A DNA stretch of 20,315 nucleotides from Deltaproteobacteria bacterium RBG_13_61_14 (GTDB lineage Bacteria; RBG-13-61-14), in the NCBI GenBank assembly GCA_001797815.1, contig MGQK01000033.1:414-20728 (forward strand), given 5' to 3'. The position numbers and the translations under genes are program-made. Of this stretch, positions 2,787 to 8,100 are shown one piece after another; position 1 is the first letter of the stretch, and every line of letters begins with the position of its first letter. The notes under the pieces were generated by a model. The model saw only the letters and a list, made by a program, of their open reading frames with translations. It was not told the origin of the DNA and searched no databases.

Positions 2787-5700
2787 TTGACCGCTCCTCC
2801 CATCATCGCCCAACTGATCGCCACCTTCGACCGCAACCGCGATTCCTACCGCTCGCCGGCCTACAACGAGCACCAGCTCCGCGTCGAGTTCCTCGATCCC
2901 TTCTTCATCGCGCTCGGCTGGGACGTTTATAACGCCGCCGGCTACGCCCTCCAATACCGCGACGTGGTCCACGAGGATGCCATCAAAATCGGCGTTGCCA
3001 CCAAGGCCCCCGACTACTGCTTCCGGGTCGGCGGCCGGCGCAAGTTTTTCCTCGAAGCCAAAAAACCATCCCTCGACATCAAAACCAACCCCGAGCCCGC
3101 CTTCCAGCTCCGCCGCTACGCCTGGTCCGCCAAGCTCCCCCTCTCCATCCTCTCCGACTTCGAGGAGCTCGCGGTTTACGATTGCCGCGTGAAGCCCGAG
3201 CCCGGCGACCCCGCCGCGGCCGGCCGCCTCTTCTTTTACCGCTACCCCGATTACCTCGAGCGCTGGCCCGAGCTCGAAAGCGTCTTTTCCAAGGAGGCCG
3301 TGCTCAAAGGCAGCTTCGATCGTTTCGCCGAGTCCGCCAAAAAGAAAAAAGGCACCGCGGAGGTGGACGACGCCTTCTTGAAGGAGATCGAGTCCTGGCG
3401 CGAGCTCCTCGCCAAAAACATCGCGCTCCGCAATCCCCGCCTCACCAACCGCGAGCTTAACTTCGCGGTCCAGGCCACCCTTGACCGCATCATCTTCCTC
3501 CGCATCTGCGAAGACCGAGGCATCGAAAATTACGGCCTCCTCCAGGCCCTCCTCAACGGACAGAATCTCTACCGCCGCCTCTTCCAGCTCTTCGACCGCG
3601 CCGACGACAAATACAACTCCGGCCTCTTCCACTTCAAACCCGAAAAAAACCGGCCCGAACCCGATACCCTCACCCCCCGGCTCGCCGTGGACGACAAGCC
3701 GCTCAAGGAAATCATCAAGCGGCTCTATTATCCGGAAAGCCCTTACGAGTTCTCGGTCCTGCCCGCGGATATCCTGGGCCAGGTTTACGAGCAGTTCCTG
3801 GGCAAGGTCATCCGCCTGACCGCCGGCCATCAGGCCAAGGTGGAGGATAAGCCCGAGGTCAAAAAAGCCGGAGGCGTCTATTACACACCGACTTATATCG
3901 TGGATTACATCGTCAAAAACACGGTGGGCAGACTCCTGGAAGGCAAAACTCCGGAAGATGTAGCCGCGACCGCTCCTCGGTCGCGGAATAGCTCAGGAAA
4001 GAAAAAGAAAGGTGGGACAGACATTCCTGTCTGTCAACCTTTGAGAATCTTGGATCCGGCTTGCGGTTCTGGATCCTTCCTCCTCGGCGCTTACCAATAC
4101 CTCCTCGACTGGTATCGCGATCAATATGTCCAACAAATGACCGCCGATTCTGACCGTAGGGGCGCACCCCTGTGTGCGCCCCCTACTGGGCAGACACGGG
4201 GGTCTGCCCCTACAAAAATCTACCAGACCGCCGCCAACGAATGGCGCCTCACCATCTCCGAACGCAAACGCATCCTCCTCGATCACCTCTTCGGCGTGGA
4301 CATTGACCCCTCGGCCGTCGAAGTCACCAAACTCTCCCTGCTCCTCAAATGCCTGGAAGGCGAGTCCGAAGAAACCCTCAAACAAATGATGCTCTTCCAC
4401 AAAGAGCGCGCGCTCCCTGACCTCTCCGCCAACATCAAATGCGGCAACTCCCTGATCGGCCCGGACTTTTACCAGCAAAAACAACTCAGCCTGATTGACG
4501 AAGAAGAAAGGTACCGGATCAATGTCTTTGACTGGAAGGCAGGATTTCCGGAAGTTTTTCACCACAGAGACACAGAGAGCACAGAGGGCAGAGGTGTTAA
4601 GGGAAACCGCGAACCGGGAACCGCGAACCATCAGACCGGCTTCGATGTAGTCATCGGGAATCCGCCGTATGTAAATTTAGCAAACATAACGGATAAAAAT
4701 ATTAGAGAATATCTTCAAAAGGAATTTGAGACTTGTAAGAATAAATCAGATCTTTATAGTTTTTTTGCAGAGAGAGCAATAGGCTTGCTAAAAGAGCTTG
4801 GAGTATTAGGTTTTATATTTTCAAATAGTTGGCTTGGAACTGATAGTTTTAGCAAGTTTAGAGAATATCTGATTAACAATATTACGATATATGAATTGGT
4901 AAAATTGCCGCCAGGAGTATTCAAAGGAGCGACCGTCACAACGGTTTTGATATTCTTGAGAAAAGAAAAATCAAAACAAGATCATAGTATTGAGCTTAAA
5001 GAATACACAAGTGGAGATTTTAGAAGCCTGCCATATAATTTGTCTTACAAAAGAATAAAAAGTTTGCCTAAGCTAGGTTTTTCATTTAATCCTCAAATAA
5101 GCTTTAAAATTCCAACTATCAAATTAGAGGAGACCGCAAACTTTTCTTTAGGAATAAAAACAAGCGATGATAAAAGATTTATCCTTGATAAAAAGAAAGA
5201 TTACTGTTCATATCCTCTTTTAAGAGGCAAAGATGTGAGAAGATATTTTTATAGATATGCTGGCAAATGGATTTGGTATATGCCTGATTTAATGATGCAA
5301 AAGGTGGGTGCTGGACCAAGAAAAGCAGAGTATTTTACAACAAAAAAGATTATGTTTAGATCTATATCTGGAGGTTCAATTATGGCTACATTAGAACCTG
5401 GTAAATATTTTACAAATGATAAAGTTCATATTTTATATGACCTACAAAAATATTCTTTTGAATTTATATTGGGATTGCTTAATTCTAAAGTAATTGAAAT
5501 GTGGATAAGGTCTTCTTTTGGAGATTTATTAGAAATTAAAATAAACCAATTACAGGAAATTCCTATTCCAGTATTGAATTTCTCCGACCCCTCCGACAAA
5601 GATTGTCACGACCGGATGGTGGATTTTGTGGATCGGATGTTGGATTTGCACAAGCGGAAGGCGGCGGCGAAGGTTCCGGCGGATCGGGATGCACTGGAGC

Positions 5701-5798
5701 GGCAGATCGCTGCAACGGATGCAGAGATAGATCGGTTGGTGTATGAGTTGTATGGGTTGACGGAGGAGGAGATAAAGATTGTGGAAGGTGAACATTGA
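2787..5798 (+). CDS. Single-chain Type IIG restriction-modification enzyme (Eco57I-like nuclease-methyltransferase)
   Basis: This 1003-residue protein combines DNA cleavage and adenine methylation. Domains in order: a PD-(D/E)xK nuclease with D76 and E90-A-K92 (FLEAKKP); a helical connector; VYYTP at 364; the SAM-binding motif DPACGSGSF at 423-431; the FGVDIDPSAVEV strand; the catalytic NPPY at 625-628; a target-recognition region of about 300 residues; and a C-terminal EIDRLVYELYGLTEEE helix typical of the family. The start is uncertain: TTG 2787 follows AAGGA, while an ATG at 2765 with a better codon is in another frame. Four stretches matching dispersed palindromic repeats are read through in frame (residues about 393-417, 457-476, 591-618). 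The recognition region, 4670-5578, is strikingly AT-rich compared with both flanks, which suggests a swapped specificity segment. A HEPN gene follows 138 bases downstream. All catalytic motifs are intact. Confidence 0.88.
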   Translation: MTAPPIIAQLIATFDRNRDSYRSPAYNEHQLRVEFLDPFFIALGWDVYNAAGYALQYRDVVHEDAIKIGVATKAPDYCFRVGGRRKFFLEAKKPSLDIKTNPEPAFQLRRYAWSAKLPLSILSDFEELAVYDCRVKPEPGDPAAAGRLFFYRYPDYLERWPELESVFSKEAVLKGSFDRFAESAKKKKGTAEVDDAFLKEIESWRELLAKNIALRNPRLTNRELNFAVQATLDRIIFLRICEDRGIENYGLLQALLNGQNLYRRLFQLFDRADDKYNSGLFHFKPEKNRPEPDTLTPRLAVDDKPLKEIIKRLYYPESPYEFSVLPADILGQVYEQFLGKVIRLTAGHQAKVEDKPEVKKAGGVYYTPTYIVDYIVKNTVGRLLEGKTPEDVAATAPRSRNSSGKKKKGGTDIPVCQPLRILDPACGSGSFLLGAYQYLLDWYRDQYVQQMTADSDRRGAPLCAPPTGQTRGSAPTKIYQTAANEWRLTISERKRILLDHLFGVDIDPSAVEVTKLSLLLKCLEGESEETLKQMMLFHKERALPDLSANIKCGNSLIGPDFYQQKQLSLIDEEERYRINVFDWKAGFPEVFHHRDTESTEGRGVKGNREPGTANHQTGFDVVIGNPPYVNLANITDKNIREYLQKEFETCKNKSDLYSFFAERAIGLLKELGVLGFIFSNSWLGTDSFSKFREYLINNITIYELVKLPPGVFKGATVTTVLIFLRKEKSKQDHSIELKEYTSGDFRSLPYNLSYKRIKSLPKLGFSFNPQISFKIPTIKLEETANFSLGIKTSDDKRFILDKKKDYCSYPLLRGKDVRRYFYRYAGKWIWYMPDLMMQKVGAGPRKAEYFTTKKIMFRSISGGSIMATLEPGKYFTNDKVHILYDLQKYSFEFILGLLNSKVIEMWIRSSFGDLLEIKINQLQEIPIPVLNFSDPSDKDCHDRMVDFVDRMLDLHKRKAAAKVPADRDALERQIAATDAEIDRLVYELYGLTEEEIKIVEGEH
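3964..3986. repeat. In-frame palindrome A inside the R-M gene
   Basis: CCGCGACCG and CGGTCGCGG are a perfect 9-bp inverted repeat around a CTCCT loop. It encodes part of the ATAPRSRN stretch between the VYYTP region and the SAM motif, where relatives usually have a short link. It looks like an intergenic repeat captured in the reading frame. Confidence 0.7.
4016..4035. repeat. In-frame palindrome B inside the R-M gene (GTDIPVC type)
   Basis: GACAGACA and TGTCTGTC pair around TTCC. The reading frame gives GGTDIPVCQ, a peptide that recurs in databases where this kind of repeat is translated. A close relative of the palindrome lies in the intergenic region at 7734-7761 in this same window. Confidence 0.75.
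4156..4213. repeat. In-frame double palindrome C inside the R-M gene
   Basis: Two different inverted repeats lie head to tail. The first pairs GTAGGGGCGCAC (4156-4167) with 4174-4186, with one bulged base. The second pairs GGGCAGAC (4188-4195) with GTCTGCCC (4202-4209). Each is followed by CTAC. The product is SDRRGAPLCAPPTGQTRGSA, a low-conservation insert after motif I. Confidence 0.75.
4558..4638. repeat. In-frame repeat insertion D inside the R-M gene
   Basis: A CACAGAGA-rich tract (4558-4592), read as FHHRDTESTEG, is followed by three GCGAACC/GGGAACC-like units (4606-4630). Both tracts are of types usually found between genes. They end a few codons before the catalytic NPPY motif. Confidence 0.7.
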
Positions 5799-5870
5799 TA
5801 AACCGTTAACCGTGAACTGGAAAATTAGTTGTATGGGTTGACGGAGGAGGAGATAAAGATAGTAGAAGGT
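5746..5870 (+). repeat. Duplicated 3' end of the R-M gene
   Basis: Bases 5746-5789, the last codons of the R-M gene, recur at 5827-5870 with two differences in 44. The offset is 81 bases, so the second copy is in frame with the gene but lies after its TGA. It would read LYGLTEEEIKIVEGNN then TAA at 5877-5879. The spacer contains a short CCGTTAACCGTGAAC repeat. It is either a remnant of an older 3' end or a local duplication. Confidence 0.85.
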
Positions 5871-5936
5871 AACAACTAAATTATCAATTATGTTCCTTCT
5901 GCTATATTTTGATCAGAGGTTGCTTGGAGAGTTTCA

Positions 5937-7502
5937 ATGGAAATGGCAATTATTGAACTGGCAAAAGAAGCAAGGAAATCACTTGATGAGGGGAGGTTTG
6001 TAGATGCCTATAATCAGGTTGAGAATCTAAAAAAGCAAGGAGATAATTATTATGTTTCTTACCTGGTAAGCGCCTTATTAATTGATATATCTCAGGCTAT
6101 GAGGAAAGAAACAATACTCCTAGAAGGACTCAACTTATTAAAAGCTAATTTTGAAAAGATCATTAAAGAGGATCGACTCGTCCAATCAGCATACTATAAT
6201 TTGGCAAATGGTTATTCCAGTTTATTTTATTATGAAAGAATAAGAAATCAATATGCAGCTCTATTCAAATCTTCATCATTAGATAAAGCAAAAGAACTGT
6301 ATAGAAAGGCCATCGGTTATGGTCTTTCAGACAAGATGCTTGCCTCAGAAATATATGTAAACATGGGAAATTGTTTTGATCAATTGGGTAGAGTTGTAGA
6401 TGCATTAGATTGTTACGAAACAGCCATTAGATGGAAGCCTGATCATGGAATGGCTCTTGGCAACAAGGCAAAGGCATTATATTACTATTCAAAATTAGCA
6501 GGTCAATTCGAAAATACTATTTTGATTGAATCATACAATCTTTTTATCCAGGCACTTAAGTTTGGAGTTGTTCCTGAAGCAATCGAAACATTTACAAAGT
6601 CAAAAGATAAAATCAGAAGCTTTTTCTCAGATAAAAGTTTCCTCGATAATCCACTTGATTATCCAACAATTGAAGTCAAAGGAGAATCAGATATTGAAAA
6701 ACATCTAATTAACTATTGTCTCAAAAATAAGCTATATTTGAATATTTGCAATTATTGCCAGAAATGTAATGCTGCAATAGGAGATAGAGTAGTCATAAAA
6801 AGAATGTTTACTCAACCGCCTAGGAGTAATGAAATAGAGGATAATCGCTTTTTATATCTTTCTAGCATAATCAATCAAATGAAGCAAGATTATATTGCTG
6901 CTAGATTTTTACTAGTCCTTTCGAAATATGAAGGATTAAATCTAAGCTTTGTTGATAAAAATGTTAGAATAATAGATACTATGGATTGTAGCGTGCATAA
7001 TATTTATATTCAAATGATGAAAATTGCATTTAAGTGTTTCTATGATATATTAGATAAGATAGCACTTTTTCTAAATGAATACTTAAGGATTGGTATGGAT
7101 AAGTTCAAATTGTATTACTCAAATATATGGTATAAGAATTTTAACAACAAAATCATTTGGCCGATTATATTAGAAACTAACAGCTTTTCTTTAAACGCAT
7201 TATTTAATTTGCATATGGATCTTCTTGACGGTCCATTTATAACATTAAGAAAAATTAGAAATAGGTTGACACATGGAATTGTTAATATAAGAATGTTTCA
7301 GGAAAAAGAAACGTATGCCGATATGAAAGATGAAACTCTTTTTAATCACTCAATGGAATTAGCAAAAATTGTACGGAGTGCTATTCTTTACTTGTTAATG
7401 TTTGTTTATAACCAGGAGGAAAAGAAGGAAAGAGAATTAAATAAAATAAGCGTTACTCAAATTGTTCCTGATTTGCCAGATCACCTTAAGAGTTCCAGAT
7501 AG
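5937..7502 (+). CDS. TPR-HEPN protein, LA2681-like (putative defence RNase)
   Basis: This 521-residue protein has helical TPR-like repeats in its first 200 residues (clearest around EIYVNMGNCFDQLGRVVDAL) and a C-terminal all-helical domain with IRNRLTHG. There R441-N-R-L-T-H446 fits the RX4-6H motif of HEPN domains. From memory, this architecture matches the LA2681-like HEPN family, one of the HEPN groups proposed to act as RNases in conflict systems. A C271-x2-C-x2-C277 cluster lies between the two parts and might bind metal. ATG 5937 is preceded by GGAGA at the right distance; ATG 5943 is possible. The gene is strongly AT-rich, like the recognition region of the upstream R-M gene, and unlike the housekeeping genes, which suggests transfer. 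RNase activity and defence function are inferred from family and context. Confidence 0.75.
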   Translation: MEMAIIELAKEARKSLDEGRFVDAYNQVENLKKQGDNYYVSYLVSALLIDISQAMRKETILLEGLNLLKANFEKIIKEDRLVQSAYYNLANGYSSLFYYERIRNQYAALFKSSSLDKAKELYRKAIGYGLSDKMLASEIYVNMGNCFDQLGRVVDALDCYETAIRWKPDHGMALGNKAKALYYYSKLAGQFENTILIESYNLFIQALKFGVVPEAIETFTKSKDKIRSFFSDKSFLDNPLDYPTIEVKGESDIEKHLINYCLKNKLYLNICNYCQKCNAAIGDRVVIKRMFTQPPRSNEIEDNRFLYLSSIINQMKQDYIAARFLLVLSKYEGLNLSFVDKNVRIIDTMDCSVHNIYIQMMKIAFKCFYDILDKIALFLNEYLRIGMDKFKLYYSNIWYKNFNNKIIWPIILETNSFSLNALFNLHMDLLDGPFITLRKIRNRLTHGIVNIRMFQEKETYADMKDETLFNHSMELAKIVRSAILYLLMFVYNQEEKKERELNKISVTQIVPDLPDHLKSSR

Positions 7503-7551
7503 CAAAATAAGATTGTGGTCAGATCTAAACATAAAACATCATGGGAAGATT

Positions 7552-7610
7552 GGGGTCAGAGCTTCACATGAAACTTAACTCAGTTATCTTCTAAGTGAAG
7601 CTCTGACCCC
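7552..7610. repeat. Long palindrome of the GGGGTCAG class
   Basis: GGGGTCAGAGCTTCAC (7552-7567) and its exact reverse complement (7595-7610) form a 16-bp stem with a 27-base loop. GGGGTCAG-ended palindromes resemble those mobilised by REP-associated Y1 transposases, but no such transposase is in the window. Confidence 0.75.
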
Positions 7611-7733
7611 AGATGCCGACCCCAGATGCCGAAGGATGAAGGATGGGGTCGGATCTAAACGAAGGATGGGGTCAGATCTAAAACATAAGAAGCAGTGAAC
7701 AGAGCACAGTGCACAGTGGACAGTGATTCAAAT

Positions 7734-7761
7734 GGGGGACAGACAAGAATGTCTGTCCCCC
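7734..7761. repeat. 11-bp palindrome, relative of in-frame palindrome B
   Basis: GGGGGACAGAC (7734-7744) and GTCTGTCCCCC (7751-7761) are perfect inverted repeats around AAGAAT. The core matches the copy translated inside the R-M gene at 4016-4035. Confidence 0.8.
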
Positions 7762-8013: not shown

Positions 8014-8100
8014 TGGTGCGAGGAGGGGGACTTGAACCCCCATAGGCTTTCGCCCACAAGGCCCTCAACCTTGCGTGTCTTCCAGTTCCACCATCCTCGC
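8014..8100 (-). tRNA. tRNA-Leu (anticodon GAG)
   Basis: Read on the minus strand, the acceptor arms GCGAGGA and TCCTCGC pair perfectly. The anticodon stem CAAGG/CCTTG encloses TTGAGGG, giving anticodon GAG, which reads CUC and CUU leucine codons. A long variable arm (GGGC-GAAA-GCCT) marks it as a class II tRNA, as expected for leucine. The T arm is GGGGG-TTCAAGT-CCCCC. The 3' CCA is encoded (8014-8016). It starts 10 bases after the secG stop codon, so it is probably processed from the operon transcript. Confidence 0.96.

Follow-up and report, generated by a model that had tools for sequence, protein, structure and literature searches.

In the genome of Deltaproteobacteria bacterium RBG_13_61_14, the gene for a Type IIG restriction-modification (R-M) enzyme is followed by a gene for a protein with TPR-like repeats and a HEPN motif. 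A preliminary description of the window, the 20,315-nucleotide stretch of DNA analysed here, regarded these two genes as a candidate defence module in which coupled action is plausible. The question raised by this locus is whether the two proteins form a dedicated pair or act side by side.

Type IIG enzyme

The following features were located in the first gene:

2787–5798 (+): Type IIG (Eco57I-class) single-chain R-M enzyme, 1003 amino acids, TTG start (Pfam, PADLOC)
3006–3065 (+), amino acids 74–92: nuclease motif APDY...FFLEAK of the PD-(D/E)xK type in the N-terminal domain (conserved in aligned homologs)
4053–4073 (+), amino acid 423: methylase motif I, DPACGSG (motif reading, homolog alignment)
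4659–4670 (+), amino acid 625: methylase motif IV, NPPY (end of backbone homology to paralog C53)
4672–5586 (+): AT-rich exchanged segment with the target recognition domain, 30% GC (DNA comparison with C53, TaqI_C match, GC content)
5590–5798 (+): conserved, GC-richer C-terminal segment (...LVYELYGLTEEEIKIVEG) (homolog alignment, GC content)

The open reading frame is intact and displays Pfam matches to Eco57I (2.6e-40), N6_Mtase, HSDR_N (1.3e-6) and, at amino acids 810–927, TaqI_C (3.4e-17), which represents the C-terminal target recognition domain. The PADLOC model REase_MTase_IIG was matched with an E value of 2.8e-193. In one of the paralogs, the position aligned with the TTG start is ATG. 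The nuclease motif and the N6-adenine methylase motifs I and IV are present in one chain and intact, in agreement with the preliminary description of a complete single-chain enzyme. By its domains, this is a standard R-M enzyme, predicted to cut and methylate DNA.

The domain order corresponds to that of other Eco57I-class Type IIG enzymes, namely a single chain with an N-terminal nuclease, an N6-adenine methylase and a C-terminal TaqI_C domain. The difference is that no separate Eco57I-type methylase adjoins the enzyme in the window; the HEPN gene is located downstream instead. Such separate methylases are frequent with distant Type IIG relatives on plasmids and proviruses, where some occupy an overlapping downstream position. 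As to BREX, DISARM and Pgl systems, the PglX models scored far below the cut-off on the window enzyme (165.5 versus 500 bits), and no pglZ or drm genes were apparent among the open reading frames of the window.

TPR-HEPN protein

The second gene is also intact and has the same direction as the first one:

5937–7502 (+): LA2681-family TPR-HEPN protein, 521 amino acids, candidate RNase effector (Pfam, alignment)
7257–7274 (+), amino acids 441–446: HEPN catalytic motif RNRLTH with R441 and H446 (family alignment)

The TPR-like repeats and the HEPN motif read earlier from the sequence were both recovered by Pfam, as TPR_1 (4.7e-9) and HEPN_LA2681 (PF18733; amino acids 306–492; 1.1e-38; 133.1 bits versus a gathering cut-off of 27). 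Residues R441 and H446 are conserved without exception in the 18 aligned LA2681 members, which originate from bacteria and an archaeal plasmid, and the protein is a predicted RNase that would act via these two residues. With the TPR-LA2681 architecture catalogued already in the 2013 HEPN survey (PMC3710099), the protein falls into a described family, with which it shares the TPR N-terminus, the LA2681 HEPN C-terminus and the invariant R-x4-H. None of the PADLOC models matched the HEPN gene (0 families), and the structure model was poor across the HEPN part (mean pLDDT 58).

The HEPN gene starts 139 bp past the stop codon of the Type IIG gene and, therefore, is not translationally coupled to it. 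A ribosome-binding-like GGAGAG precedes its ATG, and a weak promoter-like match is present in the gap between the two genes.

Base composition and repeats

The pair had been assigned to a patch differing in base composition from the genes on both sides. This is true for the recognition domain (30% GC) and the HEPN gene (31%), but the first 1.85 kb of the Type IIG gene, i.e. its backbone, are close to the flanking genes (59% versus 61–64% GC), so that a uniform difference is rejected for this part. The C-terminal segment of the enzyme, located between the two AT-rich parts, returns to 54% GC. The GC content shifts at the NPPY motif and again close to the C-terminal segment, in line with an exchange of the recognition domain. 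Chimeric assembly was judged an unlikely source of this mosaic, because the same pattern recurs in genomes from other phyla. One neighbouring open reading frame, 294–2024, contains a Glu_synthase (FMN) domain and is apparently an ordinary metabolic gene.

The repeats said to bound the patch are indeed present on both sides. Also, they occur within the Type IIG reading frame:

4010–4036 (+): in-frame palindromic repeat insert in a linker (GGGACAGACATTCCTGTCTGTC); missing from most aligned homologs
4150–4216 (+): in-frame repeat-like insert (GGGGCGCACCCCTGTGTGCGCCCC...); missing from most aligned homologs
4558–4636 (+): in-frame dispersed-repeat insert (CACCACAGAGACACAGAG...) just ahead of the recognition-domain boundary (comparison with paralog C12, recurrence in the genome)

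All three are located at linkers and leave the frame unbroken. A copy related to the palindromic insert was found at 7733–7760. The third insert is 96% identical to its counterpart in paralog C12, compared with approximately 78% for the surrounding DNA, and its first ~38 bp recur across the genome. In a Type IIG homolog from another phylum (L140, 2986–5997), the same linker contains a repeat-derived peptide of another kind, REGGNP...VIPAKAGIQ, which implies that repeats were inserted there more than once.

Downstream of the HEPN gene, positions 7519–7760 contain clustered hairpin repeats of the GGGGTCAGA type together with a GGGGGACAGACAAGAATGTCTGTCCCCC palindrome; related pieces are present genome-wide. 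The tRNA-Leu(GAG) gene at 8014–8100 (-) ends beside this patch rich in repeats, towards which its 3' end points. This end is a possible island attachment site, but no integrase gene was seen.

Paralogs in the same genome

Two further Type IIG paralogs, C53 and C12, are encoded in the same genome. They possess other recognition domains and other downstream genes: a 323-amino-acid protein with the motif RNSIAH in C53, and a 293-amino-acid protein with weak TIR/deoxyribosyltransferase similarity plus a 337-amino-acid protein in C12. No homologs of the C53 accessory protein were found in plasmids, viral contigs or the 386 sampled genomes.

The DNA of the window and that of C53 share 88.6% identity up to the recognition domain, are not alignable across it, and share 82% identity from there through the end of the enzyme gene and a duplicated remnant of its 3' end. 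The accessory genes that follow are unrelated, and the hairpin right after them is again identical. The edges of this slot are:

5825–5874 (+): duplicated copy of the Type IIG 3' end, left edge, common to C53 (DNA comparison)
7545–7617 (+): 73-bp hairpin repeat, right edge, with a 100% identical copy following the C53 accessory gene

By this comparison, the slot in the window is delimited by the duplicated 3' end and the hairpin, and both edges are shared with a differently occupied paralog. The hairpin has a predicted RNA fold of -35.2 kcal/mol (z -6.6). Four near-full and many partial copies of this dispersed element are present in the genome, so that finding it at both slots counts for less than the identity suggests; it may be a handle for recombination or a repeat present by coincidence.

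Genes downstream of the Type IIG enzyme in other genomes

Of 386 genomes, 34 contained relatives of the Type IIG enzyme, and the 45 loci read include those of the own genome; this is one sample of the enzyme family. The combination of a conserved backbone, a divergent recognition domain and an unrelated downstream gene was observed in three lineages. In two other small phyla, it is seen in the groups L140/L142/L192, L193/L195 and L194/L196. Within these groups, the backbones are 78–95% identical and the last 70 amino acids 79–94% identical, while the recognition domains share only 24–29% identity and the accessory genes are unrelated. Co-inheritance of recognition domain and accessory gene was not supported, as even recognition domains that are 42–60% similar occur with unrelated accessories. 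Across the sample, the downstream genes are mutually dissimilar, except for one near-identical orthologous pair (L156/L157).

In 35 of 42 cases, the first gene downstream has the same direction as the enzyme gene, versus 22 of 39 for the first upstream gene (Fisher p 0.014); the downstream gene lies within 30 bp of the enzyme gene or overlaps it in 17/42, versus 7/39 upstream (p 0.031). The upstream neighbours are mostly housekeeping genes. Downstream occupants include SIR2 and TIR proteins (L163), a TIR/SEFIR protein (L151), DUF3800 (L159, L168), DUF4268 (L194), M.Eco57I (L162), nuclease-like proteins and transmembrane proteins. HEPN genes of three Pfam families follow this enzyme: LA2681 in the window, AbiU2 in L166 and Cthe2314 in L143, the last as the second gene downstream. 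Such effector-like types recur in several phyla. At other loci (L139, L141, L146, L147, L152, L156), this position has housekeeping genes, a transposase or no co-directional gene.

About half of the scanned downstream proteins gave no clear Pfam match, and for many accessory proteins the term effector is a guess because they have no recognised domain. The motif R[NHD]xxxH occurs in 4 of 19 unassigned accessories versus 0.8 in shuffled sequences (p 0.005). It is the sole basis for putative HEPN domains in the accessories of C53, L161 and L201, which were not confirmed by Pfam, NCBIfam or profile comparison.

Two of these loci contain longer gene runs. In L151 (3077–12253), the enzyme gene is followed by an AT-rich run of four genes, which encode a 480-amino-acid membrane protein overlapping the enzyme stop codon, the TIR/SEFIR protein, an ATPase-like 665-amino-acid protein and a 314-amino-acid protein; this looks like a larger defence operon. 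In L163 (2630–11362), genes for SIR2-like, 1188-amino-acid TIR and RES-domain proteins follow, the SIR2 gene overlapping the enzyme stop by 4 bases.

Taken together, the comparison suggests that, in this enzyme family, the second position serves as a slot for many different probable anti-phage effectors, which replace one another. The comparison covered this Type IIG family only, and so the enrichment of effectors downstream may partly be due to general clustering in defence islands.

Genomic context of LA2681 genes

LA2681 genes are rare, being present in 3 of the 386 sampled genomes, the window genome included. Two scans of the genome collections revealed just two relatives, both distant, and one viral scan revealed none. 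The two other chromosomal copies have no R-M neighbour, and a Type IIG gene is beside none of the 15 plasmid copies. A dedicated pair of Type IIG enzyme and LA2681-HEPN protein is therefore rejected, since the partner is missing from all other LA2681 neighbourhoods sampled (0/17), and the position after the enzyme holds many unrelated genes.

The LA2681 genes on plasmids adjoin Qat (L038, L048), CBASS and AbiEii (L045), a NACHT gene (L042) or a cluster of helicase and site-specific methyltransferase genes (L039); the remaining ones have helicases, toxins and unknown genes as neighbours. In this respect the window member, which adjoins a Type IIG gene, differs from its relatives. The location of these relatives beside several unrelated defence systems fits the expectation for an autonomous effector.

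The preliminary description is therefore to be divided. Its assignment of the locus to defence is well supported, by the standard R-M enzyme, the frequent location of LA2681 genes in defence neighbourhoods and the three HEPN families downstream of this enzyme family, but the dedicated pairing is not. Within the sample the exact pair occurs in this genome only, although HEPN homologs lie near defence genes elsewhere. The two genes do not constitute a conserved two-gene system, and the HEPN protein is probably able to function in the absence of the window enzyme, because the other LA2681 neighbourhoods sampled never include a Type IIG gene.

Functional interpretation

At the level of sequence, the integrity of both genes, the conservation of their motifs, the exchanged recognition domain, the slot anatomy and the recurrence of unrelated downstream genes are demonstrated. 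The reading we prefer, with a probability of roughly 60%, is that the Type IIG R-M enzyme is sufficient on its own and has a downstream slot for interchangeable effectors, which in this genome holds an autonomous LA2681 TPR-HEPN protein sharing the locus. The enzyme would methylate host DNA and cut unmodified phage DNA as a first layer of defence. The TPR-like helical N-terminal part of the second protein may serve as a sensor or brake that keeps the HEPN domain silent until infection, upon which the RNase (R441/H446) would cut RNA and stop the cell or the phage. The HEPN protein would thus be an autonomous second layer, not switched by the enzyme but having its locus, and probably its transcript, in common with it.

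PrrC and RloC are known suicide effectors linked to R-M loci. By analogy with these HEPN nucleases, the enzyme or the state of its product could restrain the HEPN RNase, and inhibition or evasion of the enzyme by a phage would release it and shut down the cell; similar logic has been proposed for other R-M-linked HEPN proteins (PMC3710099). The predicted HEPN RNase at a restriction locus makes such fail-safe logic possible, and the three HEPN families downstream of the enzyme and the common overlapping stop-start junctions in its family point the same way. Still, we consider this explanation unlikely in view of the 17 LA2681 contexts lacking the enzyme. Completely different accessories on near-identical backbones also speak against specific binding of the two proteins to each other, provided that no common adaptor exists. 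Moreover, PrrC and RloC belong to another HEPN family, are fused to an ABC ATPase and are associated with Type I systems, whereas the window combines an LA2681 HEPN with a Type IIG enzyme. By Pfam, the 521-amino-acid protein contains TPR and HEPN domains only, with no fused ABC ATPase, and no hsdS, hsdM or hsdR genes of a Type I locus are apparent among the open reading frames of the window. The autonomous effector is favoured over a guard of this kind because both partners are also found with other companions.

Still less probable is the absence of any functional link, with both genes being horizontally acquired defence-island cargo juxtaposed via repeat-mediated recombination and the HEPN protein acting independently of its location. 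The restriction of the exact pair to one genome of the sample, the abundance of dispersed repeats in the patch, and the HEPN gene's own GGAGAG and weak promoter-like match are consistent with this. Against it, downstream genes are co-directional with, and abut or overlap, the enzyme gene more often than upstream neighbours, and effector-like types recur in several phyla. A toxin-antitoxin unit, in which a partner gene or the protein's own TPR part neutralises the HEPN toxin and which mainly stabilises the locus, is very improbable: HEPN domains are common as toxins of such systems (PMC3710099), but no small antitoxin-like or MNT open reading frame adjoins the HEPN gene, the next open reading frame is repeat debris on the other strand, and LA2681 relatives have no constant partner.

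The interchangeable slot of the preferred reading would extend what is known of R-M genes. Recognition-domain exchange has been described in Helicobacter pylori (PMC3077401, PMC3983042), where, as in the window, the backbone is kept and the target recognition domain is replaced; in the Type IIG family studied here, the downstream gene is replaced too. Linkage of HEPN proteins to R-M systems is established (PMC3710099), and backup effectors have been proposed for Dnd systems (PMC10853773). Type IIG enzymes are scored as one-gene systems in defence surveys (e.g. PMC12988326). In the open-licence literature searched, no description was found of Type IIG enzymes with exchangeable effectors downstream, nor of linked suicide effectors of these enzymes.

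Should the slot prove real, new anti-phage effectors could be sought directly downstream of Type IIG enzymes, and it would become testable in a minimal system of two genes whether cell suicide is set off by failed restriction. A more far-reaching and quite tentative proposal is a modular immune platform, in which a constant nuclease-methylase backbone would be combined with a replaceable recognition domain and, downstream, a replaceable suicide effector (a HEPN RNase, a SIR2/TIR NADase, a nuclease or a membrane protein) released when restriction is blocked. If true, this would mean that one enzyme can be both re-aimed and re-armed through recombination.
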